Source of the DNA: Apostichopus japonicus
Taxonomy: Eukaryota > Echinodermata > Holothuroidea > Aspidochirotida > Stichopodidae
DNA length: 64,000 bases
Direction: 5' to 3'
Assembly: GCF_037975245.1 (NCBI RefSeq)
Contig: NC_092582.1
Span: 23,088,577 to 23,152,576, forward strand
In this document: in pieces, positions 261 through 61,467 of the stretch
How the letters are laid out: every line of letters starts with the position of its first letter
Position numbering within the stretch: position 1 is the first letter of the stretch
The notes under the pieces: generated by a model
What the model was told of the DNA's origin: nothing
Seen by the model: only the letters and a program-made list of their open reading frames with translations
Database searches by the model: none
Made by a program: the position numbers and the translations under genes

Positions 261-3200
261 CTACAGCAGAAACTTCTTAGTAAATGATGTGACCAAGCAC
301 GGCATCTGTTTAACTGCAACATCATTACCTTGGGTTTCTCGCTTAGCTATCTGGTTGTGCACCTGAACCAACAAATCTAGAAAGTGCTCCTTACCAGGAC
401 CCTTGTTATGCGCTATTGCTTTACACAAACAGTTGATATACCAAGTACCTTCTTGCTCGTTTCGCCAGGATCTCGTCCCTGTTGAGAAAGCATGATATGT
501 CATAAAGCTGCAGCAAAACAACAACAACTCTAACAGCTGCAGCACAACAACAGCTGCAGCAAAACAACAACAACTCTTACAGCTGCAGTACAACAACAAA
601 AACTCTAACAGCTGCAGCACAACAACAACTGTAACAGTAACAGCACAACAACAACAACAATAACAGCTGCAGCACAAGCAACAACTATAACAGCTGCAGC
701 ACAACAACTCTAACAGCTGCAGCACAACAACAAAAACTCTAACAGCTGCAGTAAAACAACAACTGTAACAGCTACAGCACAACAACAACAACGATAACAG
801 CTGCAGCACAAACAACAACTCTAACAGCTGCAACACAGCAACAACAACAAATCTAACAGCTGCAGCACAACAACATCAACAACTCTAACAACTGCAGCAC
901 AACAACTCTAACAGCTGCAGCCGACAACAACTTTAACAGCTGCATCACAACAACAACAACTCTTACAGCTGCAGCACAACATCAACAAATCTAACAGCTG
1001 CAGCACAACAACAACTCTGACAGCTGCAGCACAACAACAACTCTAACAGCTGCAGCTGACAACAACTCTACAGCTGCAGCACAACAACATCTAACAGCTG
1101 CAGCACAACAACAACTCTAACAGCTGCAGCACAAAAACAAAAATTCATACAGCTGCAGCACAACATCAACAAATCTAACAGCTGCAGCACAACAACAACA
1201 GCTGCAGCACAACAACAACAACAAATCTAGCAGCTGCAGCACAACAACAACTATAACAGCTGCAGCACAAAAACAAATATTCATACAGCTGCAGCACAAC
1301 AACAACTCTAACAGCTGCAGCACAACAACAACAAATCTAACAGCTGCAGCACAACAACAACAACTCTAACAGCTGCAGCACAACAACTCTAACTGCTGCA
1401 GCACAACAACAACTCTAACAGCTGCAGCACAAAAACAAAAATTCATACAGCTGCAGCACAACATCAACAAATCTAACAGCTGCAGCACAACAACAACAGC
1501 TGCAGCACAACAACAACAACAACTCTAACAGCTGCAGCACAACAACAACTATAACAGCTGCAGCACAAAAACAAATATTCATACAGCTGCAGCACAACAA
1601 CAACTCTAACAGCTGCAGCACAACAACAACAAATCTAACAGCTGCAGCACAACAACAACAACTCTAACAGCTGCAGCACAACAACAACTCTGACAGCTGC
1701 AGCACAACAACAACAAATCTAACAGCTGCAGCGCAACAACAACAGCTGCAGCGCAACAACTTTAACAGCTGCAGCTGACAACAACTCTAACTGCTGCAGC
1801 ACAACAACAACTCTAACAGCTGCAGCACAAAAACAAAAATTCATACAGCTGCAGCACAACAACAACTCTAACAGCTGCAGCACAACAACAACTCTAACAG
1901 CTGCAGCACAACAACTCTAACTGCTGCAGCACAACAACAACTCTAACAGCTGCAGTAAAACAACAGCTCTAACAGCTGCAGCACAAAAAAAAAAATTCAT
2001 ACAGCTGCAGCACAACAACAAAAATTCATACAGCTGCAGCACAACAACAACAAATCTAACAGCTGCAGCGCAACAACAACAGCTGCAGCGCAACAACTTT
2101 AACAGCTGCAGCTGACAACAACTCTAACTGCTGCAGCACAACAACAACTCTAACAGCTGCAGCACAACAACAACTCTAACAGCTGCAGCACAAAACAAAA
2201 ATTCATACAGCTGCAGCACAACAACAAAAATTCATACAGCTGCAGCACAACAACAACAAATCTAACAGCTGTAGCACAACAACAACAGCTGCAGCGCAAC
2301 AACTTTAACAGCTGCAGCTGACAACAACTCTAACAGCTGCAGCACAACAACAACTCTAACAGCTGCAGCACAACAACTCTAACAGCTGCAGCACAACAAC
2401 AACTCTAACAGCTGCAGCACAACAACAACAACAACTCTAACAGCTGCAGCACAACAACAACTCTAACAGCTGCAGTAAAACTTTCAACTGTCAAGGGTTT
2501 TTGTTTAACAAATGTTAATCTCTTGGCCTGAGAATATTTCTAAATGAGCTGTGTTTCTGGCACACATAATCACAACTGGTAGCATGGTATGTATAATTAT
2601 GTTGCACATTTTAGATGATTCGATTGGCAATTTTTACTCACTGTCGGAATAATTCCTTTAGTTCTTGCCTCATCTAGCACAGGCAGTGCATTTTCTACCG
2701 ATGCGGATGTACGATTTATTTTGTCATTTTTCGTCAAAAACTGACGGAACTCTCGGTAAATTTCGGAAGGAGAACTTTCTGCTATAAAATGCTGCCACCC
2801 TTTTGGTTATATACTATGTCGCAGTCATTTTCTAAGACTTTCGGCTTACTGTAGCTCTGCTTGTGTCTAATAATCACAAGAGGCCACCAACCGTAAGTAA
2901 CTCTCGACAGCTGGCGCATAGCCATGTATCGGGTACTCCGATTGGACATTTCCCTTGTGATATATTTAAAAAACTTGACCTGATTCAGCAACTTCTTTCA
3001 AAATGCACAAACTAAATAAAAGACTCTGGTTTAATATCTAACTACTGTACAAGTAAGAGCCCCCCCCCCCCACTTGTTTGGAAGTGTCAAGGTGTTTACA
3101 GGAAAGAGCGGGGGGAGCTTTTATAAAATAAAAACAACTCACCGGGTGATGTAGAGTATGCGATCAAGACATCTGCATTTTCCGGCCTTGAGAGTTGTGT

Positions 3201-5734
3201 TGGTGGGGTTGGAATGACCTGCGCTGGTGGATTACAGTCAGACCTATCGAGTATCCCACGAGCAGATTTAATCCCACGGCATGCTTGGATAACAAAGACT
3301 TTTGGTTTCCCTGGTGAAATGGAAGATAAAAACTAACTAAAAAGAATTTGTTTTCTAGGATGATCCCAGAAGATTGTTGTCGCTGCAATATAGCAATTTT
3401 TCGGGCCCATGCAGTAAATGTGTTTTAATATGGTAGAGTGCCCCCCCCCCCCCCCCACCACCACCATTGGAAGCATTGTAGGTTGCAACGTCATCAAAGT
3501 GCGATAGGAGTGTGTAGGCAGAAGCCAAGATGCAAAATAATTCCAAAATTGTCGAATTAAAAGTTGAGATAATTTCGGCTTTTTTTTGGTTCCTTGCTTT
3601 ATGCAAAGCAAGGAACCTATGCATTCAACTTGGCGTGTGTGTATGTGTGGGTGTATGTGCACTTGTTTTGTATTCTGACCGAGGACTTGAACAAAAGAAT
3701 TCCAGGTCCTCGGATGTGATTTCTAAAGAATCACCACGTCCTCGAAAGAATTCTATTGTTATGGGGTATTGTTAAGGTTAGGGTACGTGGATTTGAACAA
3801 TGGAAAAAACAATGGGGTCCTCGGTCTGAATGTAAAACACACCTGTGGGTGTGTGTGTGTGTGTATGTGACGCTTGGCTTGTGTACACGATATCTTAATA
3901 AGGAAATGATGTATCATGATCAAACTTGTTGGGTGGATAGCCCATAGTAAGAGGAAGATCCCTATTGTTTTTGGTGCCTGCAAAGGTCACCAAAGGTCAG
4001 TTAGATGCCAAAAACCAATATATTAAAAACAGCAATAACTCCCATTGACAGGGTCCGACATGGTTGATATTTTGGGAGTAGTTGTGAATGGGGTAAGGGA
4101 TCGTTTCCAAACATAACGGTAATGTGATCGAAGGTCAACAAAGGTCAATTAATGATAAAAACTAGTATTTTTGCGATAACTTGAGAACGAAATGTCCGTT
4201 AGGGTTGGGAGTTGCTTCAATGTAATCCAATTGTCGAACCGCATCTGGTTGACCCTTGACCTCAATTTGACCTCTGGTGACCTTTACATGTGTTTGGGGA
4301 TTTTTACAGTTTTGATGCTGTTTTCAGATGTCAAAGGTACCTTCTGATCATAAATGTCAATAGGTTGACCCCGTGTGACCTTTATGTGCGAAGTTATATG
4401 GGGTCAAAGTTTTTCGGTCGGAGTTAGGATGGTTGTACAGACTTGTCGTTTTGTTTTTTAGAACCAGGAGATTAAACTACATCTGAAACCAAGGTCAAAA
4501 GGTCAAAGGTCACATTAGAAAAAATGTGCTTATTTTGGGAGGAAACGAGCAAAAAAGAAAATGTTTGGTTTTGATGCTAGATTTGGATATCAAAGTGATC
4601 CAAGGTCACCAAAGGTCAGCTAATGTTAAAAAACCAGTATTTTGGGGGGAGAAAATGGGCAAAGAAAAAATGTTTGAATTTGTACAGTTTTGATGCTGTA
4701 TTTAGGTCTCACCGATCAAAAATGTCAATTGGTTGACCTCCGGGTGACCCTGTGTGTGTGAAGTTATGTATACAAGTTCAAAGTTAATTTTTAGACATTT
4801 AATGCAATTAAATCCCAATGCCAAGGTGTGACATGGTTGATATTTTGGGACAAGTTGTGAATGGGATGGTGGAACATTTTCAAACTTAAAGGTCATGTCA
4901 TCTGAGGTCACCAATGTTATCATATCTGTTGACCCGCTTGTAGGTGACCTTATATTTCTTACATTTTCGACGCCATATTTAGATCTCAAAAGTGCCTTTT
5001 GATCAAAAATCCGATCACATTTTGTGATCACAAAAGTGTTGGCTATAGTGTTGGTTACTTTATGGGAACATGTAGGACCACAATTACTTGGACTATTTGA
5101 GCCCAATCTTGCTTGATAATATTATGTGTATTGTCATATACACCAAGCAAGGAACCACAGTGACCTTGGGCTCTTGTTTTGTGTTGAAGGCGAGTCATGA
5201 GCAGCTTTAATCAACCACTGAGCGCTAGGCTTACGATAAAAAATGAAAAAACAGTTGAGAAAAACGTCAGTCACACCAAAACTTGACGAAATGCTCTCAG
5301 ATGAGAACAAATGAACCGTGTGCACTATCACCAGTCCCTGCTGCAGTATGAAAGACAAAGAGTACTCTCAAATGCCTTTTAAAAAGCCTTCACAATCTGG
5401 AAGATTGTAGACAGGATAGATGAGAAATATCACAAAAACACACAAAAAAACCCATCATCAAATGTTGTATGAGGAGACATCCTTCTAAAATGAACACTTA
5501 CCAACATTTGGTAGATAAAACCTTTACAGGAAAACACATCCTCAGGTAGCAAAAAAACAGGTAAATCTTCAATACTTCCATCCCACACAACCTCCTCCCC
5601 TCAAACCAACTTTCCCCTTTCCACACCTCTCCATCATTCCAATTGTGTGATATTTTTAGTAGCATGGTCCCAATATCTCAATGTATATGTGTGGCATATC
5701 TATACATATATATATATCTATATTTATTTATATT

Positions 5735-6061: not shown

Positions 6062-9000
6062 TAGATATATATATATATATATATATTAAAGCCAATGTTG
6101 TCTGTCTCTGGTAAATATATTTACCAACAAGTTTAGGGGCGCTCCATCCATCAAAGTAGTCCCTGATGGCATCCACTGTGACTTGGGATGAATCAACCAA
6201 GACTATACTTTCCTGTTTACAAAAAAACAACATGTGTTAATTGCCTGTACAAGTTCGACACATCCACAGAGCTGGTTGGCTTAGTGGTTCTTTGCTATAT
6301 TTGGTATGAGAACTGTAAACAGTAACACTACAAACAAAGATACTTAAATGTGTTGACCATTACTTTTCAGTGAGATTCATTTTGCCATTGTTCAAATCCA
6401 TGTACCCCATCCTTAACAATACCCCTTAACAATAGAATTTCTTCTGAGGACATGTGTGATTCTCTTCAAGGAACCTCTGAGGACTTAAAAATTCCTTTGT
6501 TCAAGTCCTCAGTCTGAATACACACACACACACACACGCACACACACACACAACTTCATAGTCACATTCATTCATTCATGAATCAAAATATAAACATCTA
6601 GATTTTATTTGCAGTATGAACTATGAGACTTGACAACCCAAAGAAGAAAAAAAGGGGGCAAAATAAATGTCTGTGGACATACTTGATTGATTGTTCGCTC
6701 TAATAGCTGATCCTTTGTATTTGGACATGAACAGAAGACTCACCTTTTTGCCAGTCTGACCATCTTTTGTTATTTCCGTCTCGATGCCATGACTAGAGAT
6801 GATCAGAATGAAACAGCTGTAATTTCCTCCTCCGACCTCTGTATGTGCTTTCTTTAAACTGTTCCAAAACTCTGTCTGTCCCAACTCCTCTTCGATCTGA
6901 ATTTCATAATTGTGTAAGGAAGTTCGCAAGTTCTCAACTGAGGCTCTGTCTATCTCCGCACCTGAAAATGAAGAGGAACAATTTCCGTAATAATCATCAT
7001 AATAATAACAATAGCAATATGTATTTATACAGCGCTTTACATAAACAAATATCTCAAAGCACTGTGCTTGGATCTACAGTATTAAGAAAAGATTGAAAAG
7101 AGAATATAAGAGTAATAAAAGGTTATAAAGTTAATAAACAAAATTGTCGTTGTCATCATCACTGGAAACTAACCTTCAGGTAGTAGTTGGAGCATGTTTA
7201 TGGCCAGATACCTCATAGCTACAAACACAACAAGATGTGCATCCATCAAATGATGGAAACTCACCTTCTGGTAGTAGTTGGAACATGTTTCTGGTACGAT
7301 ACCTCATAGCTACAAATACAACAAGATGTGCATCCATCAAATGATGGAAACTCACCTTCTGGTAGTAGTTGGAGCATGTTTATGGTACGATACCTCATAG
7401 CTACAAACACAACAAGATGTGCATCCATCAAATGATGGAGACTCACCTTTTCGGGGCTCGTACTGCTCACATCCGTGGGGGGGCGGGCCTCGGAAGTAAT
7501 TGTTGATGAACAAAATGTAACCCCGGCCCGGTGTGTAATACTTTTCATCTTGCCCCATGGTAGTGTTATGGTTTGCATCCACGGTAATGCCTTGAGACAA
7601 GAGTAAGAAATGTGAAAGGAATGAGTGAAACAGTGTGCGTTATTTTTTGGCAAAACAACATTAAGAATAATATATGATGGAAACGACAAGCACGATCTTC
7701 ATTTCTTCTCCTAACCATATTCAATTGAGTAACAGCTAAAGTTTTCAATGCTACAGACAGACTTTTTGTTCCGTTTTCATTTAATAAGCATTTAATATCA
7801 GTAGATGTCCATTTCATATGCTATCCTTGTTACAGCGTATCACAGTAGTATTGGGCTTTATGGCTCTCTGATACTGTAACTAGACGTCCCCAACTACGGC
7901 CGAATTCCATTAAATGTACCTTCCGTTTCGCATTCGAACTCATACTCAAAATGCAACAATAAACTTCCATGAAATGTTCTCAGGAACACACCGTACACAA
8001 AACACTGGCACCGCTTACAAGTTTCCACGCTATTCTATGATAAACATTCACCAGTAAATACTGCACATTTTTAAACAGACCTCATTCAAAAATCTTCGCC
8101 TAACATTCAGCTTGATAATGTAGCTTTTTTATATGTAATGTTATACCTGGTTGGCTTTGTCCAGACGGGTACATGGAGTTTCCGTTTGGTCCATGACCAT
8201 ATTGGCCCGATGAATGTGACATCATACCTGGTTGGCTTTGTCCAGATGGGTACATGTTGTTCATGTTTGGTACATGACCAAATTGGCCCCCTGAATGCGG
8301 AGGTATGACTGACGTTGGGCCGTGGCTGAAGCTGCTCATCGAAGGCATGGCATCGCCTGATAGAAAGACAACATTCCATTCAAAATTGAGCTTGTATAAT
8401 AACATATGCACATGATTTTCATGAAATTTTGTCGGTGACTTTCTGCCGAACGAACGGGACATTGCTGCATGTTGAACCTCCATGTAACGATGAGTTGCGA
8501 CGACGAAATCGAATTAGCCAGATATGATAGTCAGTTCAGGAGTGATTGCACTCGTTTAGCTTGTTCTCGTTACTTGTTATGGGAGGCAATCAAACATGCT
8601 ATCTGCAGATATCATGTTTACAAGGAGTTCAAGTTTTGAAACCCTGGTGATCTTAAATGAACTCTGACCTACACCAATATGTAAAAAGTTCACACTACAC
8701 AAGGCGATCATACCAAGCATATAATATGAACTCCTTTGATGTTCAGGCCCTGGTGATTTTCACATTTTCCCTAAGGCAATGTAAATTCAAAGTTTTATGG
8801 AGAGATAAATAATCCTGTTCGTACTTTTTAAGGAGAAAATGAATCTTGCCATCTTTATGGCCAACATTTCAACCTTTTCATTTGAGGTTCTTGTTTATTA
8901 CAGTAGAGTGCCATTGGGCTGTTGAACTTACTGCTGTGTTTAATGTCAACATGATATCTAGGTCCAAAAGGTGGTTGTGGTGGCATTTGGTTGTACGGGT

Positions 9001-9935
9001 GAGGTCTTTGCTCGAAACCGTAATATGGTGGTGCAGCACCCACGGGTAGGTAACCTTCCACTGGTATGCCGGCTGGAAAGAATCCAAAAAAACGAAAGTA
9101 CAGTAGTTATCATATGGAGTTACAGTACATATTCTCGTCTGGTACAGTACTGATAGAACATCGACACAATGACGTCATGGTTCTATCCACCGTTTACCCC
9201 CCCCCTTCCCTCCCCCCAAGCTTCCTTTCCAAGTCAAAGCTTCAGGGTATATTAACCAAATAAACAAGAAATACAAAACGAAATAGGCTTCGACCCTTGG
9301 ATTCTTAGTCAGCTAAAGTACACTAGATTTTAATACCATATCAAAACTTATTGCCATGGTCAAGAAAAAGCGAAGAAGGGGAAGTGGCAGTTTAACAAAC
9401 AGCCTTGAACCCTAAGACATATTTTTTTTAAGAAAGACCAGAGTGATTTAATGCATACAGTATTTATGCCAAGTGGTTCAAGCTGCTGCCTGTTTGTGAT
9501 ATAAAGCAAAAGTGAGATTTATGTCTTTCCAGAGGATTAGTCAAATACATTTCAAACAACCAAAAACTCTCTTTGGTAATTTCAGTTGTTCTATGTTAAA
9601 TATTGTACAGTAAAATATACACGTTCAGAGTTCAACCTACCAAGATATAAGGCTCCCTCTGCCTCCTTTACTATTTCCACTGATTCCTCATTGTCAATCC
9701 TAAGCAGAAGCTTTTTCAATTTGTTGTAATCTCCTTCTTTGAATATTCTCTTCTGTTGCAACTTGCTGAATAAATCTGACAGGGATAATATTTTCTCCAA
9801 TTGTCCTGCTCCAAACCCACCATATTCTTTGGCTTTGCAATGGTCTTTCAATTTATTAAAATCATCTACCACCAAGTTGTTGCATAGGTCTTGCATCAGT
9901 TTGATGTGGATTTCGCTCTGTCCTCGTACAGACAT
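261..9935 (-). CDS. casp8: DED-containing initiator caspase (caspase-8/10-like)
   Basis: Initiator cysteine protease of death-receptor or innate-immune signalling, acting in cytosolic DED complexes. Assembled exons (minus, 5' to 3'): 9641-9935, 8932-9072, 8147-8356, 7447-7590, optional mini-exons 7356-7400, 7265-7309 and 7174-7218, then 6744-6961, 6125-6212, 3143-3310 and 261-478. Phases match at every GT-AG junction. Without mini-exons the coding length is 1482 nt, or 493 residues. Exon 1 encodes one DED (about residues 5-95, with a KKLLLRID motif). Exons 2-3 are a Pro/Gly/Gln-rich linker. Exon 4 has [10 protein letters not shown]. Exon 6744-6961 has the catalytic-His motif SSHG, exon 3143-3310 the Cys motif QACRG and the p20/p10 linker with Asp residues, and the last exon the p10 motif [11 protein letters not shown]. 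Vertebrate caspase-8 has two DEDs; only one is seen here. The start is the ATG at 9935; an upstream noncoding exon is possible. The intron at 2477-3142 shows only a short poly-C run. Confidence 0.9.
505..2476. repeat. CAGCTGCAG-rich minisatellite in the last caspase intron
   Basis: About 2 kb of tandem units of roughly 22-30 bp. Each has a CAGCTGCAG core (E-box CAGCTG plus CTGCAG) and a CAA/CTCTAA-rich spacer. On the minus, transcribed, strand the unit reads as a T/G-rich tract ending in GCTGCAG, resembling a 3' splice site. A higher-order repeat of about 298 bp is visible: 1117-1323 and 1415-1621 are almost identical. The true acceptor of the last caspase exon lies at 479-480, just beyond the array. 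Confidence 0.95.
3589..5156. mobile_element. Non-autonomous element rich in AGGTCA half-sites, in a caspase intron
   Basis: Bounded by a palindromic left end (GGTTCC...GGAACC, 3589-3617) and a right end AAGCAAGGAACC at 5145-5156. The interior (about 3980-4960) repeats AGGTCA and TGACCT hexamers many times, including closely spaced direct repeats near 4494-4512. There is no coding capacity. It lies in the intron between caspase exons 6125-6212 and 3143-3310. Element status is inferred from the matching ends; no target duplication was confirmed. Confidence 0.55.
3672..3831. mobile_element. Short inverted-repeat MITE (CCGAGGAC family), copy 1
   Basis: About 160 bp with ends ATTCTGACCGAGGACTTGA and GGGGTCCTCGGTCTGAAT, which are inverted repeats of each other. 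GT-rich microsatellites flank both sides (about 3630-3660 and 3843-3866). Related copies lie at 6368-6519 and 54408-54564. Confidence 0.7.
5695..5835. repeat. (AT)n microsatellite
   Basis: Almost pure TA dinucleotides with occasional TTTA interruptions, in a caspase intron. The apparent Tyr/Ile peptides here are artefacts. Confidence 0.95.
5852..5926 (-). other. tRNA-like sequence (SINE head)
   Basis: On the minus strand a box A-like TAGTTGGTTAGG is followed by a box B-like GGCTTCGAATCC at roughly tRNA spacing. It lies between two (AT)n arrays. No convincing acceptor stem was found, so a tRNA-derived repeat is more likely than a working tRNA. Confidence 0.5.
6001..6086. repeat. (AT)n microsatellite
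   Basis: TA dinucleotide run ending about 40 bp from the donor of the caspase exon at 6125-6212. Confidence 0.95.
6368..6519. mobile_element. CCGAGGAC-family MITE, copy 2 (degraded)
   Basis: Matches the copy at 54408-54564 and, inverted, that at 3672-3831: a GTTCAAATCCATGTACCCC-type interior, AACAATACCCC, and an end TTCAAGTCCTCAGTCTGAAT. A (CA)n microsatellite follows at about 6520-6552. The left end is eroded. Confidence 0.6.
6988..7066 (-). mobile_element. L2/CR1-type 3' tail fragment
   Basis: On the minus strand it reads AGTGCTTTGAGATATTTG, then GTAAAGCGCTGTATAAATA and an AT-rich ATT-repeat end, the form typical of 3' tails shared by L2-like LINEs and their SINEs. Similar tails occur at about 28630-28700 and 63935-63995. 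Confidence 0.5.
7174..7400 (-). repeat. Triplicated 45-nt mini-exon plus 46-nt intron cassette (91-bp tandem units)
   Basis: Three units spaced exactly 91 bp apart. Each has an acceptor (gtttgtag in two copies; the copy at 7265-7309 has atttgtag), a 45-nt open segment and a donor (gtgagt twice, gttagt once). Segments are 7356-7400, 7265-7309 and 7174-7218. They encode [30 protein letters not shown] and [15 protein letters not shown]. Both flanking exons and every cassette are phase 1, so 0, 1, 2 or 3 inclusions keep the caspase frame. The insertion point splits the conserved R-x-G segment: EPRK before, GAEID after. The 46-nt introns are very short, so splicing is not guaranteed. Confidence 0.8.
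8147..8390 (-). repeat. 81-bp (27-residue) duplication within the caspase linker exon
   Basis: The linker exon holds two copies of an 81-bp unit, each ending in [10 protein letters not shown]. The first copy also ends in CCAG followed by GTATGA, the same layout as the real donor at 8146-8147 (CCAG then GTATAA). A second, in-frame donor therefore exists after position 8228. Confidence 0.75.
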
Positions 9936-46060: not shown

Positions 46061-48541
46061 TCATCTCTTCGCGGTTGGATAATAAGTGTTTGACGCTGAG
46101 TGTTCTTTCAAATATTCTCCTCCCTTCTCCAGATAATCTGCTTTGGTTATACTGCCCTCACTCATGAGATTTGGATCCATGCTCCACTTTGCTGCACCTT
46201 TCCATGCATCAAGAGCGGGATCGGCTTTGAAGATGAAAACAGAAACGGGGTTTAAAAATGAGAAAGAAGAGGCAGCTTGCTTATTAAACAGGAACCCATT
46301 TTCAAGAAATTAATGCCAAAAATAATGGGGGGGGGAGGGGGAGAGGAACAGGAAAAAAAGGAACATCTGATACTGTCCATGTTAATCATTGCATCTGAAT
46401 ATTTTGATAAGTTAATGATATATTTTATATTATACAGCCATGAGCCAAAATTGTTTGCTCTTTTCAAATATTCTCTACAGAGTACAAAGTAGCAACGGTT
46501 GCTTCCTTTCTCCCTACATCATTTAAGTCCGTATCTTCCCACATTCCCCACCTCCTCCCCCCCACCCCCTCTACTTTCCTTTGGAATTTCAGTTGAAATA
46601 AAGAGAGTAAACAATTGTCTGTATTCCAAGATTACTCTCCACTTACCTGCTTTAGTTACTTTAAATGTAGACTGGAATGGCCTGACAGCCCTAAGTTCTG
46701 CCTCTACTCTCTCCACCATGCTTGGATAGGCAGCGAGTCCACCAGTCAGGTAAACATTCTGCAAAGATATAGACCAAGAGATGAATTGATGAAAGTAAGC
46801 ACAACTCTGATTCAACTAGGACCAATTACCAATACAACATTAACTTGAAAAAAACTACATTCTATACCTGTGCCTTTTAAAATTAAGTCCTTTGCAGTGG
46901 ATCTTTTCCACACAGAGCTAATTTTAAAATTCCACCTGATGCACTGAAGGGGGTTGGAGAAAGAGGGGGGGGGAGCATAAGAGATGACAAATGCTGATAA
47001 TGTAAATTGTTCATATCTGAAATGTACTTCCAATGTAAATAACAATGCAATGTGAAAATGTATCTGAAAAGCACGGACCAGGGGCACCATGCATGTATCG
47101 TGATGTGCATTGTGGGACCAGGTGCACGATTAATGTATCGTTATTTGCATTGTGGGACCAGGTGCACCATGTATGTATCGTTATGTGCATTGTGGGACCA
47201 GGTGCACCATGTATGTATCGTCATGTGCATTGTGGGACCAGGTGCACCATGCATGTATCGTTACGTTTATTGTGGGACCAGGTGCACCATGTATGTATGG
47301 TTATGTGCATTGTGGGACCAGGTGCACCATTAATGTATTGTTATGTGCATTGTGGGACCAGGCACACCATGTATGTATCGTTATGTGCATTGTGGGACCA
47401 TGTATCATTATGTGCTGGGACCAGGTGCACCATGTATGTATCATTATGTGCTTTGTGGGACCAGGGTCACCATCTATGTATCGTTATGTGCATTGTGGGA
47501 CCATGTATCATTATGTGCATTGTGGGACCAGGTGCACCATTAATGTATCATTATGTGCATTGTGGGACCAGGCACACCATGTATGTATCGTTATGTGCAT
47601 TGTGGGACCATGTATCATTATGTGCATTGTGGGACCAGGTGCACCATGTATGTATCGTTATGTGCATTGTGGGACCAGGTGCACCATGTATGTATCGTTA
47701 TGTGCATTACTGTTACAAGTACATTAAGCAAATGAGGAAAAGTTTTTCACTCCTCTCAAACACTATAACTACAGTACAACCCACCAGAACCAAAACAGCA
47801 AACCTGGAAGGATTTTCAAAAGATGGAAAAAAATGGAGACTGTATCCTGATTACTTTCTATTATTTGGCAACCCTTTGTTGTTACCCATCTATCAGTATA
47901 GTGATATTGGTTTCCCAAAGAATCTACCCACAAGCCCTTATATAAAAAAAATATATAGATATTTCATTATTTCAAATACCTGCACAAGTTTGCTTTGGTT
48001 ATCTTGGTCGTACAGAGACAGGATGAATTCCATCGTCTCTGCCACTCCCCCTTGATCCATTCCGGCGATCGACGGTTGGAATAATATCTCGGGAACTCTG
48101 ATTAATTCGGTACCCAGATGAAGCTGGTAATATTCCGCCACGTCAAATGTCATTTTCTTTTGGATGCTGTGTGAACTTTAAAAAAAAAATTAAACAAATG
48201 TAATCTATAACAGATAAGACAGTTAAACGGCTGTAGGAGTAGGAGGCAAGAAGGGATGGACTTATTTATAGTGTATTTCTGCGATTGCATAACAATTAAA
48301 CTCGGGATGGGTCTGACTAAAACCCAGGGGTTACCTTTGTCACTTAACAAAGGACCTGCACAATCAACTGATATATATAAAGCAGCAAGACCGACATCAC
48401 AAGAATTTCACCCAAAGCCAAATTTTGCTGTCCAAAAACCCTACCTACTTAATAAAAGATATGTATAGTTTTATAATCATAAAGGGTTATGACGCCAACA
48501 CAAGCGCCTTTGAAATCCGATGATCACGATGATGATGGTGG

Positions 48542-54600: not shown

Positions 54601-57600
54601 CACAGACATTAACTTTCATACATTAATTTCAACACACAATTTCAAAGTGGACATGCAGGCACTTTATTAATCACAGCTTTGCATTATTGAGTACAACAAT
54701 CTTGCTGAGGACAAACATGAATGAAATCTCACAAAAAAGTAAAGAGTTAAATCTATACTTTGCCAAACTAAGTGGAGCCTTTTATTTCAAGTGCCAAGTA
54801 CCTCAACCCTGCTGTTGTTGATGGCTGAGAAATGAGAAGGGTATTTCAGTTGAAGAGCCCGGCTCAAGAAAGTAGCTTGTTGATATCCTCCGACATTGAC
54901 CCTCCGGCACATGGCGGTTTCCAATCTGCTGTTGAGGTACGGGAGTATGCAGGTGTTGTGATAACCGAAGGAGACCACCAGACCATCTGAAGTGTCTGTC
55001 CAACATGATTACAGAGGAACAATAAATCAATTGACATTTTACTGTATTAAACAAAACTCTACTATATGGTGACCAAAAGGTATGGTATGATCACCTAACT
55101 TTAATCACTTTTCAATTCCCCTAACTTGAAAGATTTTAAAGTGAAGCTATCAGTTTATGAGGTATTCTCAATGTACAAATTGTTAAGTACTTACCTCCCA
55201 GAAGGTCTGGTATATACATTGACCCTAATAGGCTAAGAGTAACATCTTAAAGTGCTCTTTTGGTACAAGTTGATGGGGTAGCATTCAATTCCATGCAGAG
55301 TTGTGCCAAGTCGATTTATGTGCATTTAAAGGCATTGAAGACTCGCCCCAAACCATGTGTGGCCTTCTAAAAAAGTTAACTTTCTGTTGCTTGCAAGTGA
55401 CGTTTTGTTCCTGTCGCTACAAAATGCAGACAGTACGGTAATGAAACGTGATACCTTGTTATCTTTAGCTGGACCTGAGATGTCCATCGCTGTATCGTTT
55501 GTATACAGTGCTGTGGGTATTGATCGCAGCTGTATGTACTGACTGTACACTAGTGTCTAACTGGCGGTGGTAGCAAGCTGTGTGTGTATTTTCTGGGATT
55601 GATGGTGGTGTTTAAAAGTTCTGTTACACCTCATTCGAAACCAGGTCAAAGTACCTGCATTAGATGTTTCTTTTTGCGCTAGTCTTCACACCCTTTAAGC
55701 TACTACCTGTAATTTCCTGGATTGGATTCTGACACAGTAGACACACATGGTTACATAGTTACCACCATAGGGTTTGTTATGGCATAAGTAGAGGGGGTAG
55801 TTCCAAATAGAGCTGTAACAAGTCACTTCATTTTGAAGTAGAATTTCATAGGACTTCATTACCTGTAAATTTCAGTGGGCAAAGGAGGATAATAGTCACT
55901 ATTCAGTAGTGAATGTAGCACCATCATATATTTGGTATACTTAATATTTATATGAAAATGCCCCTAATATTGAATGTAATGTTATCATAGGTTAATAGCA
56001 GTTACTCTAAAACTCTTTCATTTATACAAGAGCAGAAAACATTTGATTCTCCAGCAAGCCGTTAGTTTTAGAGTAATCTCTATGCTTGTAGTTGTGTTGC
56101 ACCAGGGACCGACACTACAGTCACCTCCATACAGTTTGGTATGGTTCTTATACAGGAGGGTTGTGCACACATCCAGGCTAAGTTGTATTAAACAAAGCCC
56201 TTGAAGGCTTTGTCCTTTCATTACCAAATATTTCCTGACTCTGGTGTGATACAGAGGGCAAAGCTGGGTAATAGTGACCGTCAAAGGGTTCGCTCTCAGT
56301 ACAAGTCGAGATGGTAGGGGCGAGGGGGGGGGGGCTAATTCTCGTGGCAACTTAAAAGGCTAGTAAAGAAGCCATTGAGCTGGCATGGTCTGGTACAAAC
56401 TTAAAGATAATATCACTCACCTCCCATTGGCTGGCTATGGTGTAAACTAAACAGAGCATCTACTCCGTAAGCAACCTTCGGAACTTGGTAGCACTCAAAC
56501 AACAGTTCAGACATTACTACAGGGGATAGAGAAAATGTTATATTATATAATATATATCATATATAATATTATATTATGTAAAGTTTATGCCAGACTGACA
56601 ACTTTAATAATAAAGGTACATGTGGTTTGCTTAATACCCCAGGGCAATACAAAGGGAAGGATAGAAATAGAATGTCACATGCTTTATATATATATATACT
56701 GTATATATACTTTTCAGCATCATAGAATGGGCACACCAATTTTGTAAAGAGAAAAAAAACTGTGTTGATCCATGTCTGATGTAAAGTTCATTCTTTTTCG
56801 CACAATTTAATGTAATATAGTAGTACCCACATAAATTGAACACTAGTACTGTTTGGCTAGCAGACTTTTAAAGCACTTTTCCTGGCGGCTTCGCTTTGAA
56901 CTTAAATATGGTCAACTGGCAATGACAAATGGTTGAGGCAACGCCTGTCATGATCACAAGTATTACTCTATGATACGTCCAATACATATGAATGTACATA
57001 TGTAAATAACCAATAGCAACAAACAGTGTTGATCAGGAGGTCCAATCAAAATTGAAGAAATTATTTCGTGGCCAATGAGAATGCCACGGAGAGATTTTTG
57101 TAAATAAATCAACAACAGCATTAAACCAAGTTTGCTCTTTATTTTTCCTCTGTGACTAGTCCTCCCAAAAAGTATGGGTCCCTTTCATGATTGAAGACTT
57201 AAATTGTAAGAAATACATTAAAATGAAGGTGAATTCTGTGAGAGGCATTGTCACATGATATTGGAGTAATGTAGAACTATGTAACAAGTAATAAAACGGT
57301 CTAACAAGTCAACTCACAGTGACGACTGTAGTTAGGATTACACAGCACTTCTGTCATCAGGACTGGGTGCTCAACGAGCTGGCCTTCAGATTCGATACCT
57401 AAATGATGGAAAACATGGTCAAATATCTGCTCCTGAACGTCAAAATGAGTGACAACGTCTCGATCAAACTGGGTGCGCAATAACCACCTCACGGCTTCGA
57501 GGTTACTGATGTTGTTTCCTATCTGGACTTCGCCTTCTCTCTTGCTCCGCTGTCTGGTCACGAAGTTACGAAAATCCAGTTTGGGCTCCGCGTCGTTCCC

Positions 57601-58307
57601 CCAGCCAGCTCTGCATCTGAAGGAACCTGTGACGTAAGAAAAAAACTGCATAACGTAAGAAAAAGTTCATAGTTTGGCTTGTAACTGGTCGTCGTGGTAA
57701 ATTATCGTGTGCAATCTTTTCAATGTCAGTAGTTTTTCAATATTGAGAGAATTTTTTTATCCACATTGTTATGAAGGGTTTTGTTCACCTCATTATTATT
57801 ATTATTATTACTCACTACTTAAATGCAACTGAAACAGCAAACGATGGTTTCTTTTATAAAACAAACCTGAGTACACTGTGAGTCAATTATTACATTCAAC
57901 TGAAGAACGTGTAGTTAAAACTTGTAAGAATTGTTTCACAGAACAAATTAAATTGGAAGAAAGTTCATGATTAAGCCAAACATTTTCAGAAACAAATCAT
58001 ATGATATTCTTGCTTACTGTATAGTTAAGGTACATCACTGAAATAGATCAGCTTAAAACATATACAGTGGAAGGTTATAGTACTCAGATGATGAGGTGTG
58101 TGCTATGGGTGTCTCTGTCTCTCCATTTACTGAAACATCTATTAGAAAAACCAGATTCATCTAAATTTTTAGAAGCCTGTGTTATGAACACTTACCATTA
58201 TCAATCACAACTGGGACTTCATTTCCTTGTGGAAAAGTGGGATATTTATGGAGCTGCTCTTCTTGGTTGCTAAGGAAACTGTCTTTGAACTCGTAAGTGC
58301 CAGTCAT
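46061..58307 (-). CDS. actr5: Actin-related protein 5 (INO80 complex subunit), central junction unresolved
   Basis: Nuclear actin-fold subunit of the INO80 chromatin remodeller. N-terminal exons (minus): 58196-58307, 57318-57626, 56421-56516, 54802-54995 and 53235-53351, encoding 276 residues in phase. Motifs include VVIDNG then [48 protein letters not shown] and [12 protein letters not shown]-terminal exons: 47980-48166, 46647-46758 and 46061-46224, about 153 residues, with [29 protein letters not shown] and [13 protein letters not shown] before the stop. Exon 53235-53351 ends in phase 0 but exon 47980-48166 starts in phase 2, so a middle piece is needed. Four exons between them (48935-51580) fit the upstream phase but end in a stop; see that entry. 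The start ATG follows the family N-terminus length. Confidence 0.88.
47078..47712. repeat. 40-bp minisatellite in an ARP5 intron
   Basis: About 16 copies of a 40-bp unit containing TTATGTGCATTGTGGGACCA and GGTGCACCATGTATGTATCG, with a few deleted units. The unit has no stop codon in any plus-strand frame, which creates long spurious frames. Confidence 0.95.
48516..48716. repeat. (GAT)n trinucleotide microsatellite
   Basis: About 200 bp of GAT/GGT triplets between ARP5-region exons. It would read as poly-Asp, poly-Met or poly-His depending on frame and strand; none has splice or homology support. Confidence 0.95.
48935..51580 (-). CDS. Four coiled-coil-like exons inside the ARP5 gene (insert, alternative tail or nested gene)
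   Basis: Exons (minus): 51488-51580, 50461-50803, 49629-49672 and 48935-49024, with good GT-AG sites and phases 0/0, 0/1, 1/0 and 0/stop. They encode 189 residues: charged, Gln/Glu/Lys-rich, probably helical, with [25 protein letters not shown], an acidic [19 protein letters not shown] stretch and a final [13 protein letters not shown]. They join in frame to ARP5 exon 53235-53351; exons 1-5 plus these four total exactly 466 codons with the stop. Position and length fit the charged insert of ARP5 (276+189+153 residues is close to human ARP5, about 607), but I see no clear sequence match, and the TAG at 48935-48937 blocks reading into the last three exons. A nested gene with an unseen 5' end is the alternative. 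Confidence 0.6.
50170..50445. repeat. Degenerate GGTTGCTATGG repeats
   Basis: Units with GGTTGCTATGG, a TCAG motif and CCATTTT recur at roughly 50-90 bp spacing, ending next to the donor of exon 50461-50803. Confidence 0.5.
51618..51645. repeat. (AT)n microsatellite
   Basis: Short TA run in the intron upstream of exon 51488-51580, adjoining the Penelope fragment. Confidence 0.9.
51743..52081 (-). pseudogene. Retroelement C-terminal fragment (GIY-YIG-associated, Penelope-like)
   Basis: Minus-strand reading includes [19 protein letters not shown], a CNLCMEGKF motif and NKFVSKCRH, followed by stops. This Cys pattern after an IW.LK segment is the tail found after GIY-YIG endonuclease domains of Penelope-like elements. 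Only the tail is present. It lies in the ARP5 intron between exons 53235-53351 and 51488-51580. Confidence 0.65.
52452..52768 (+). mobile_element. TTAA-flanked MITE, copy 3 (internally deleted)
   Basis: TTAA at 52448-52451 and 52769-52772. Same family as 13883-14247, but it lacks about 45 bp after GCAAGCTGT, where other copies have GTGTGTATTTTCTGGGAT. Confidence 0.85.
54408..54564. mobile_element. CCGAGGAC-family MITE, copy 3
   Basis: Ends ATTCAGACCGAGGACCCC and GTCCTCGGTCAGAT are inverted repeats; the interior matches 3672-3831 in the opposite orientation. A (CA)n tract precedes it (54375-54392) and CA-rich sequence follows (about 54575-54605). Confidence 0.75.
55330..55694 (+). mobile_element. 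TTAA-flanked MITE, copy 4
   Basis: TTAA at 55326-55329 and 55695-55698. Full-length relative of 13883-14247, in an ARP5 intron. Confidence 0.85.
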
Positions 58308-61121
58308 TTTCACCTTAGACTAGGAAAACAGGGTTTGGCCCCACTGAATGTCAGACTCAGAGTGTCATTGATGTGAGATTGTATAAGACCTGTGCTATAT
58401 AGGTGGAAAGGAAAATGGAAATAAACTTAGCACATAGAATTTATAATACAGTAACAGATCACCATCTGCTAGTTTTGATTGTATCTATTGACTCTGCAAA
58501 CAGATAAATATACTGTCATTGACTGTACATATGAACATGTAAATGAAAATTAATATACGTACAAACTATACGAACTAAAGGATTCCATAAATGCTGGACC
58601 TCTGGCCACCTTATGCTCACCATTTATCTAGTGCTTGGACTATTTTGGGAACTGCCAAACTCAGTTCCATGGTTACTTGCATGGCAGCCAGAGTAAAGGC
58701 CCACACTAGTGCCACTGTTTTACATGCTGCCAGACTATAATATGATTATGTTTTGTGTTATAATTACACCTGGCAGCCAGATGAATAAGGAAAGGTCTAA
58801 TGTCCTTGTTCATTTGTCTGTTGGATACACCCATTTCACATTCCTTGATGTAAGTTACATAGGCCTTCCCATACAAAGAAGTCCTGCAGGAATCCTATAC
58901 GATTCCTGTATATGGAACAGGATTCCTTCCAAACGTACAAGAATCCTTCATATGCATGCAGGATGTGGCCAAATCCTGGCATAAAATCCCACAGGATCCT
59001 GCAGGATTTTATGCAGGACTTTTCAGGCTTAACATCAATGGCATATTGCAACAGTGATAACTGGTTAATTAATATTCATTACCACTGTGTGAGATAGCAA
59101 TCTCAGATTCTCAAACTGAGGTAAAAGATCCCTAATTGTTCAACTAACTTAAGATCTTATGTCCAAATAACACTAGGTCCTATAGCCTAGGCCTAAAACT
59201 TTACTACATACAGTAGCCTGTGCCTAACGTTTAAGTGTGTTGCTGTGTTCAGGGCCTAACTAGTATAAATCAGTGTTACTTAGTCAACTTCATCGCAAGG
59301 CCTTAACTAGAAGTGAAATTGCTTACACAGCGACGAAAGATCCACTGTTCTAACGGTTTTTTCGATGTTTTATCAAGAAGGAAAAGTCGCTCTTTCAAGT
59401 TTACTTACGTTGCGACAAGAACCTGACAAGTAAGCTAGTACTGCACCAACTTATGCCGCTACTGGGCCAACATTATACATGTCTTACGGGGCGCCGGGAA
59501 AAAAATTGTAATACTATGCGCCTATGCCGACGCTATACGCACGGGGAATTCCCTATGATTCAACCATAGGATTCACCTCAATTCGTCATAATTTGCACAT
59601 ACTGTTAGCATATATAGGACGAGCCGCAAGTGCGTGAAGCTTCTTTCGTTCTTATGGAACCGGGCAACTATCATTCTGATCCCTCAGCTATAGACCAATA
59701 ACTGATATTTTGTAAAATCTATGAACATTCGTAGATTTTATGAAACGTTGGATCAAACAGACGAGCAAACTTAAACCAGACGTAGGCCTATGCTGTGATT
59801 GGAATTCTTCGCATAGCCTAACTTGTTCACGTAAGAGTCGGAAGTACAGTACTTGTAGCACTGTAGCCTAACTCTAATCACATAATCACGAACAAAGTAA
59901 GTTTGGATTTTTCGTTTCAAAATCGCAATCAGAAATTTGTGTGCTTATCTATATACATGCTTGGGAACATAGAGAAAACTAGCAATGTTTTTTGGGAAAT
60001 GCCATTGTTTTCTGCAGCCCAAATATTAGTCCAACCATTACTTTACATAGCCTACAGCTAGTATAATGTCATTGCATCCATACAGTAGGAGATCTGTAAA
60101 CCATGAATGCGTTTGATAGTCAAGATTTTGATTCCGTTGGAATTTTCCCAATGTTCTTAGCAATGTCTCGATATTTAAGGATAACAAATTGTTAATCTCC
60201 CTATTTTTGTGGAAAACAGTTGGCAGTTCTGTCAATGGTTAATTGATATTTCACCTAGAATTTCAATGTGGTACTATATGTTAATAGTATATCAGTATGT
60301 CAACAGACTGAATCTTGCCTTATTTTTCAGAGGAAAAATAAAAATTCATACCTGCAATGCAATCAAACAATAAGGTTTAAGGTGGATGATTCGTACCCTT
60401 TGGAAAGATGTTTGTCTCTCAAATATCTTAAATGGATGTATGATTGGACAATGTTGCCCTACAGTAGTTCAGGTTTGAAATATCAAGGCTATTATTTTGA
60501 GACAGTGATAAGTGACAGTTTAAAGTACAAACTGCATGCTGTTCTTCCGAGTCTATCAAATTCAGGATGTTGACAATACTAGTAGTATAACTATCCTAAA
60601 CCATTTAATGTACTACTATAATGGTAGAATGTGATATATAATATGATTAGCCATCAGGTTTGGAAATCAGATTCACAAGTTGAACACTACTAAATACTCT
60701 GGTTGTAACATAACTTAAAGAACAATGGGCCATAATATATTCAACTGAGCTATCTTTGATCACACCAATAATAAAGGGGAGTTTTCAACAAAAAAAGGGG
60801 GAAAAAGGAAGAATTAAAGGTAGTCATTATAGGCCCCAAATTATAGCACTCTTTAATTGCTAGAAGTTTTCAAAAAGTACTTTCCTGGAGGTCTTTACTC
60901 AGACATTTTTAAGGAACACACACAAGATGACTGAATGTCTCAGTTAGGCAAAATTTTCCTCCAAGGTGGTTGTAATAAAAACAGTTTTAAGAATTTTGAC
61001 CAAAGGTGACCATATTTATACTATCTACTGTACCTAGCATATTAGGGGCCAATACAGAATACCTTTTAAGTGTCTTGTTTTCTTTAAACCTGTCTTGTGT
61101 TAATATTCTGTGTCAATACAG
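58308..61121. other. Divergent intergenic region between ARP5 and the CARD gene
   Basis: Must hold promoters for both genes. At 58860-59035, copies of AGGATTCCTG and TCCTGCAGGA in both orientations suggest a small foldback element. A good donor, ACAAA|GTAAGT, at 59896-59897 could end a noncoding first exon of the CARD gene that splices to the acceptor at 61120-61121. No coding exon was seen. Confidence 0.45.
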
Positions 61122-61131
61122 TATCATAACC

Positions 61132-61467
61132 ATGGCCATGTCAAGAGATTACCGAAAAGTGCTGGACAGGTGTTTGGTTCAACTCTGCAACGATTTGGAC
61201 GTTGACTCTATTATGCCTCACCTCATGGCTGAAGGACTGATCACTGAGAGCGATAAAGACAAGCTTGGAGCTGAAGCGGTACGTTCCAAACGAGTATCAG
61301 ACTTTGTGAGCATCTTGAAAAGGAAAGGAAACAGGGCATTTGAAGTGTTTGTGAAGGCTCTACGAGAAGACGAGGGCAGCAGACATTTAGCTGATCAATT
61401 GGCAGAGGTTTATAACGGAATAAATATCGCACAACCAAGCCAAGTCCCTATGCAGGCTTCGGATTGA
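61132..61467 (+). CDS. CARD-only protein
   Basis: A 111-residue protein, almost wholly a caspase recruitment domain (about residues 4-90), which pairs with other CARDs in apoptotic or inflammatory complexes in the cytosol. Visible: an N-terminal helix RKVLDRCLVQLCNDLDV, IMPHLMAEGLIT, ESDKDKLGAEAVRSKRVSDF, and the helix pair KGNRAFEVFVKALRE and HLADQLAE. A short Gln/Pro tail follows, then a TGA. The start has a strong context (AACCATGG), just 10 nt after an acceptor-like TACAG, so an upstream noncoding exon is likely. No catalytic or NACHT domain follows within 2.5 kb. It could be an adaptor or a decoy inhibitor like vertebrate CARD-only proteins; the partner is unknown. Confidence 0.85.
   Translation: MAMSRDYRKVLDRCLVQLCNDLDVDSIMPHLMAEGLITESDKDKLGAEAVRSKRVSDFVSILKRKGNRAFEVFVKALREDEGSRHLADQLAEVYNGINIAQPSQVPMQASD

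Follow-up and report, generated by a model that had tools for sequence, protein, structure and literature searches.

A tandem array of three candidate 45-nt cassettes at the S1-pocket junction of a sea-cucumber DED-caspase gene

The caspase gene and its surroundings

The window, that is, the whole 64-kb stretch of sea-cucumber DNA analysed here, carries a complete protease gene on its minus strand (9935 to 261). It consists of eight coding exons for 493 amino acids, and its seven introns are all of the GT-AG type (Table 1). A Pfam search finds a full caspase domain (PF00656, E 3.6e-40), and the SHG, QACRG and R-x-G motifs of the gene align with those of caspase-8 (6px9) at E 1.4e-23; the Peptidase_C14 domain, the catalytic His and Cys and the S1-pocket Arg that define a caspase are all present. 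The first-pass annotation had taken the gene for a caspase, and with both the His and the QACRG motifs in a complete gene this identification is sound. Caspase-8 is characterized by two tandem DEDs. Its active site is QACQG according to the part of the source available (PMC9330033). Neither feature is found in the present gene, where a single weak DED-like match in exon 1 (PF01335, 26.3 bits, under the curated cut-off of 35.9) is combined with QACRG. The nearest solved structures among the best 60 of 211 matches are those of human caspase-8 (86.7 bits), with a narrow lead over the best caspase-3 (83.9 bits). Because of QACRG and the one DED, the gene is classed on its sequence as a DED-caspase, caspase-8-like, and not as caspase-8 proper.

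Exon 3 contains a duplication at 8143-8297 (27 codons), both units of which end with CAG/GTAT (the slash marks the junction). Since its inner donor (8228, score 4.0) outscores the outer one (8147, score -0.5), an alternative 27-residue end of this exon is possible. The last intron of the gene includes a 1.9-kb minisatellite with AACAGCTGCAGCACAAC-type units (544-2475) and, at 2778-2642 on the minus strand, an open exon-like stretch of 137 nt with AG before and GTGAGT after it. The end phase of this stretch mismatches exon 8, and no Pfam match to it was found up to E 1. Elsewhere in the window, a CARD protein is encoded on the plus strand (61000-61464, PF00619 E 2.3e-16), a second gene of the cell-death type. 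An actin-family match is located on the minus strand at 57304-57666 (PF00022 E 1.9e-10), and a stretch at 46522-46815 on the same strand, to which Pfam itself gave no match, seems to be the terminal part of this actin-related gene. This gene (46.5-57.7 kb) is presumably ARP5-like.

Table 1. Coordinates of the caspase gene, of the array in its fourth intron (positions in the window) and of a tandem exon pair elsewhere in the genome
Feature	Position	Strand	Remark
Coding exon 1, single DED-like domain	9641..9935	-	PF01335 E 8.9e-06
Coding exon 2, Pro-rich linker (Pro/Gly-rich)	8932..9072	-	
Coding exon 3, with 81-bp in-frame tandem duplication	8147..8356	-	
Coding exon 4	7447..7590	-	end ...YEPRK-G (phase 1), donor AAG/GTGAGT
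46-nt intron, exon 4 to C1	7401..7446	-	palindrome CCATCATTTGATGG at 7438-7425
Cassette C1	7356..7400	-	45 nt, 15 residues
46-nt intron, C1 to C2	7310..7355	-	
Cassette C2	7265..7309	-	45 nt, 15 residues; strong donor; 137 nt from exon 4 donor
46-nt intron, C2 to C3	7219..7264	-	
Cassette C3	7174..7218	-	45 nt, 15 residues; weaker donor GTTAGT; 228 nt from exon 4 donor
212-nt intron, C3 to exon 5	6962..7173	-	
Coding exon 5	6744..6961	-	begins GAEID, carries SHG catalytic His
Coding exon 6	6125..6212	-	
Coding exon 7	3143..3310	-	QACRG active site
Coding exon 8, up to stop codon	261..478	-	
CARD-caspase exon A	C11:1001871-1001704	-	168 nt
CARD-caspase exon B	C11:1001637-1001470	-	168 nt

The array and its position in the catalytic domain

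The fourth intron holds three tandem 91-bp units on the minus strand, each of them a 46-nt GT-AG stretch followed by a 45-nt segment that is open in phase 1 and has an acceptor and a donor of its own. This is the arrangement that the first-pass annotation had described, down to the exact 46 nt of the introns inside the array and to the shared phase 1 of all junctions, including those of the flanking exons 4 and 5. The array amounts to 3 x 91 + 11 nt (about 287 bp); its left edge is the exon 4 donor, and the first 11 nt of the 212-nt intron (GTTAGTTTCCA) form a partial fourth unit. TTTGTAG stands before each cassette, AAG/GTGAGT after copies 1 and 2, and AAG/GTTAGT after copy 3. No frame other than that of phase 1 stays open in each of the three copies. 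The palindrome CCATCATTTGATGG is present in every 46-nt intron, once per unit. A reading of the array through as one exon is ruled out by stops in frame. The units are adjacent, homologous and equal in length and phase, with splice sites of their own, and to this extent they appear to match the description of tandemly duplicated exons.

The cassette-free junction, EPRK-GAEID, aligns with the S1-pocket Arg of known caspases (R-x-G; R-N-G in human caspase-8), and each cassette would place 15 residues between R-x and G, two residues behind this Arg, both as previously proposed. The Pfam score is 138.5 bits without cassettes versus 129.4 with three, the cassette-free form fitting the family best, and the alignment of the three-cassette form begins at residue 309, directly behind the insert (264-308). 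The cassettes match no residues of solved caspases; they constitute an insertion, and not a set of segments standing in for one another.

A search of the genome with the catalytic domain (E up to 10) gave 26 places, of which five belong to the caspase gene and 21 lie elsewhere. Nine of these 21 were inspected, in 9.9-kb stretches. R-x-G lies within one uninterrupted exon in seven of the nine, and an R-x-G exon was not found in the other two (L031 and L036). An intron with an insert at the R-x-G site therefore appears unusual among the caspases inspected here. More than half of the matches (14/26), all weak (E 0.08 to 9.3), fall on one genome contig, also labelled C1 (13.8-14.4, 17.4 and 21.5-21.6 Mb). 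A local expansion of the caspase family is possible there, because at least three inspected stretches (L032, L033 and L035) carry caspase-type exons.

A CARD-caspase elsewhere in the genome (L028, C11:1001871-1001470, minus strand) has two tandem homologous phase-0 exons of 168 nt. They are 66 nt apart, 37 of their 56 residues are identical, and both encode VYRM..PRGLALIINN....R-x-GT-VD, each with its own R-x-G. For caspase-9 of Holothuria leucospilota, the available part of the report gives a His-Cys distance of 43 residues, a CARD at 1-90 and a domain start at 146 (PMC9330033). With one of the two exons, and with exons joined by eye, the CARD-caspase has a domain start of about 151 and a His-Cys spacing of 43 residues; since spacing and domain start match those of the H. 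leucospilota protein, one exon per transcript fits. These two exons are strong candidates for mutually exclusive splicing, by which part of the substrate pocket would be exchanged.

The copies of the array differ at 4, 5 and 7 sites per 91 bp (92-96% identical), with eight variable sites overall. Contrary to the earlier statement that all of these differences change the amino acid, one of the six variable exon sites is synonymous (CCA/CCT, Pro, of copy 3), and three neighbouring ones (CGTACC/CTGGCC) possibly go back to one event. The copy differences give no signal of selection, with 6 of 45 exon sites and 2 of 46 intron sites varying (Fisher P 0.16). Because the copies are so similar, the array looks young or homogenised and is unlikely to represent an ancient, conserved means of tuning; the near identity also suggests that the copy number may be polymorphic between individuals. 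A DNA search of the 672-Mb genome with the cassette matched only the cassette itself (common words were skipped, which makes this a lower bound), and a degenerate pattern with up to three mismatches recovered the three copies alone (again, counts are lower bounds). A transposon or a dispersed repeat as the source of the cassette is unsupported, no further copy having been found in the genome. The array probably arose by unequal exchange between GTGAGTTTCCA and GTTAGTTTCCA, which would have stood at the ends of a single ancestral unit. As the array begins at the exon 4 donor, this strong donor is repeated in copies 1 and 2. The three cassettes represent one duplicated event and are not independent of one another.

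Room for splicing and possible explanations

The array intron spans 485 nt from end to end, and each of the 14 further introns measured in the window has at least 531 nt: 531-2814 nt for the others of the caspase gene (n=7 with the array intron), 639-844 nt for CDK9 (n=3) and about 1.0-3.6 kb for uridine kinase (n=5, approximate values from tblastn ends). In human constructs, about 90% or more of splicing is lost when the distance between donor and branch point falls below 47 nt, as far as the available part of that study goes (PMC11291888). A distance below 50 nt is acknowledged, in the accessible text of another, as one way in which mutual exclusion may come about, which applies to 57 human clusters or 9% (PMC5740500). 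Branch-point candidates in the 46-nt introns, judged by eye, are located about 19-29 nt from the donor. This room rule, which is derived from human constructs and not from the sea cucumber, is not absolute, since in humans introns as short as 43 and 49 nt are still removed from transcripts, by a route left unexplained in the available part of the report (PMC4463651).

The first-pass annotation had allowed any number of cassettes from 0 to 3. The frame is indeed kept on all paths, but five of the eight paths require a 46-nt intron, and only three (none, C2 or C3) avoid it. Given the far longer introns of the window and the human donor-branch minimum of about 46-47 nt, the physically usable products are probably limited to the cassette-free form and to forms with a single cassette, either C2 or C3. 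C1 is predicted to be unusable because its sole upstream donor is 46 nt away. The spacing predicts that no two cassettes are included jointly, yet the canonical protein requires none of them.

The explanation that we prefer, tentatively and with rather less than even confidence, is that a single optional 45-nt cassette behind exon 4 was tripled recently together with its 46-nt upstream intron, and that the copies are mostly skipped. Exon 4 would be joined to exon 5 in the main transcript to produce the canonical caspase. The 46-nt introns would be too short for splicing, and at most one cassette would be included for this reason: C1 would be dead, C2 and C3 would exclude each other, and a minority of transcripts would contain exactly one of the two. 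Placed after the S1-pocket Arg-Lys and before the next Gly, the 15-residue insert would presumably distort the substrate pocket, and the resulting weak or inactive caspase might still pair via its DED and dimer face to act as a damper. This explanation is favoured by a gene that is complete without cassettes, by the donor scores and by the fact that the sole common open frame is the phase-compatible one; the CARD-caspase of the same genome, with tandem homologous exons at the same S1-Arg region, may be added by analogy. Against it stand the weak cassette acceptors, the failure to find a match elsewhere in the genome that would point to conservation, and the lack of a sign of selection in the copy differences. 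Scored with a splice weight matrix, the cassette donors (8.3, 8.3 and 3.8) are inside the range of the real donors of the gene (-0.5 to 8.3, n=7), while the acceptors (3.2, 2.3 and 3.2), with TAG and a G-rich tract, are at or slightly below the weakest real one (3.2 to 8.0, n=7). The same rule of room also bears on the origin of the array: an ancestral single-copy cassette, 46 nt behind exon 4, would be unspliceable and therefore silent. This weakens the idea that the cassette was originally a working exon, and either it never was an exon or the duplication first made copies usable.

The main rival, almost as likely as inclusion of at most one insert, is a neutral intronic minisatellite, in which the donor region of exon 4 was duplicated with part of the intron, every unit inherits its GT from a single donor and its AG from a single chance occurrence, the open frame is fortuitous, and none of the cassettes is spliced. 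It would account for the near identity of the copies with no further copy found in the genome, for the strength of the C1 and C2 donors, both of them copies of the exon 4 donor, and for 46-nt introns that appear unspliceable. Tandem repeats are common in the window (61 TRF rows, some overlapping), and an open frame of 15 codons by itself has, by arithmetic, a probability of about 1/2. The combination of an acceptor, a length divisible by 3, a right-phase frame and a donor is much rarer, however. With the scores of the cassettes themselves as thresholds, an equally good open phase-1 stretch of 24-150 nt occurred in 0.4% of 20,000 simulated introns (first-order Markov, 325 nt, or 303 plus edges), and in none of seven other intron pieces of the caspase gene (five introns in full, the final 212 nt of the array intron and a 653-nt portion of the last one). 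In the 64-kb window outside the array, with both strands covered, no stretch passed on the plus strand and eight on the minus strand, namely exon 4, two whose end is the inner exon 3 donor, and five others, one inside exon 8, that are not known exons of the caspase gene. One cassette as an accident is unlikely, yet not absurd.

It is unlikely, though worth consideration, that the duplication itself created a usable exon from a pseudo-exon too close (46 nt) to exon 4. Copies 2 and 3 would have been moved away from the exon 4 donor, to 137 and 228 nt, and copy 2 would have acquired a copy of this strong donor; the length of the array, which possibly differs between individuals, would determine which copies are usable.

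Free cassette exons, with the 46-nt introns spliced and 0 to 3 cassettes included in any combination, are distinctly improbable. Every path keeps the frame, splicing of 43- and 49-nt introns has been described in humans (PMC4463651), and the 46-nt introns fold at -10.7 to -12.2 kcal/mol, with a hairpin lying between the two splice sites that might alter the room needed. However, the lengths of the introns measured in the window speak against such splicing, and the branch-point candidates are far closer to the donor than the published minimum of 46-47 nt; the human introns concerned, as described there, are G-rich and without usual branch sites, unlike those of the array.

Even less credit is given to competing RNA structures, in which CCATCATTTGATGG palindromes would pair across units and choose a cassette in the manner of a docker-selector system. 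The 297-nt region folds at -94.8 kcal/mol versus a mean of -73.7 kcal/mol in 200 shuffles (z -4.3, with pairing between units), and such systems have been proposed to arise when stem-loops are duplicated in part, according to the part of the paper available (PMC6071210). This z-score, however, is inflated by the repeats because shuffling destroys the duplication, every palindrome is able to fold on itself, and single introns reach a z of just -1.8 to -2.3. RNA structure as the main mechanism is rejected, the low z-score being largely a product of repeats. An assembly artefact, with extra units mis-assembled from one or two true copies, is just as improbable: near-identical tandem units are hard to count, but these differ at eight sites in total, and the array is just about 287 bp long, with unique flanks on both sides and one locus found in the assembly.

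If the cassettes were used as preferred here, with at most one insert, they would provide an in-frame splice switch exactly at the substrate-pocket Arg of an animal initiator-type caspase, and a plain physical rule, the room for the spliceosome, would decide which copies enter. If both the array and the CARD-caspase pair were used, this lineage may diversify caspase pockets by exon duplication. If the array is unused, it is a caution that tandem repeats seeded by a donor mimic exons.

Comparison with known systems

Inhibitory caspase forms made by splicing are known in vertebrates (caspase-2L/2S, caspase-8L and caspase-9b), and these isoforms truncate or delete catalytic parts. The array differs in that it would, if used, add an in-frame insert of 15 residues at the S1 pocket. 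Cassette splicing of caspase-2 has been described in the accessible part of one source (PMC8003524). Among the titles listed for the terms searched, none dealt with a caspase carrying such an array of tandem or mutually exclusive exons, and the available parts of three papers found for sea-cucumber caspase-8 give no caspase-8 length or isoform (PMC7836458; PMC9330033; PMC10531719).

The introns of the array resemble some of the human ultra-short introns (<66 nt) in being of the GT-AG type and shorter than 50 nt. In contrast, the human 43- and 49-nt introns are, from what is available of the report, rich in G, and their 3' and branch signals are poor, whereas the array introns are duplicated and have a strong donor (PMC4463651).

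Known tandem mutually exclusive exons, as far as the available parts of the sources describe them, are likewise homologous, of equal length and in the same phase, and are separated by introns too short for joint inclusion (PMC9013439; PMC5740500; PMC6071210). Their versions substitute for each other and one is always needed, while the cassettes of the array represent inserted sequence, of which the canonical protein has none. The CARD-caspase pair shares with the array the same region of a caspase, the tandem arrangement and a very short intron, but it consists of full 168-nt substitutes and is presumably much older. Of the two, the pair appears to be the closer match to mutually exclusive exons.
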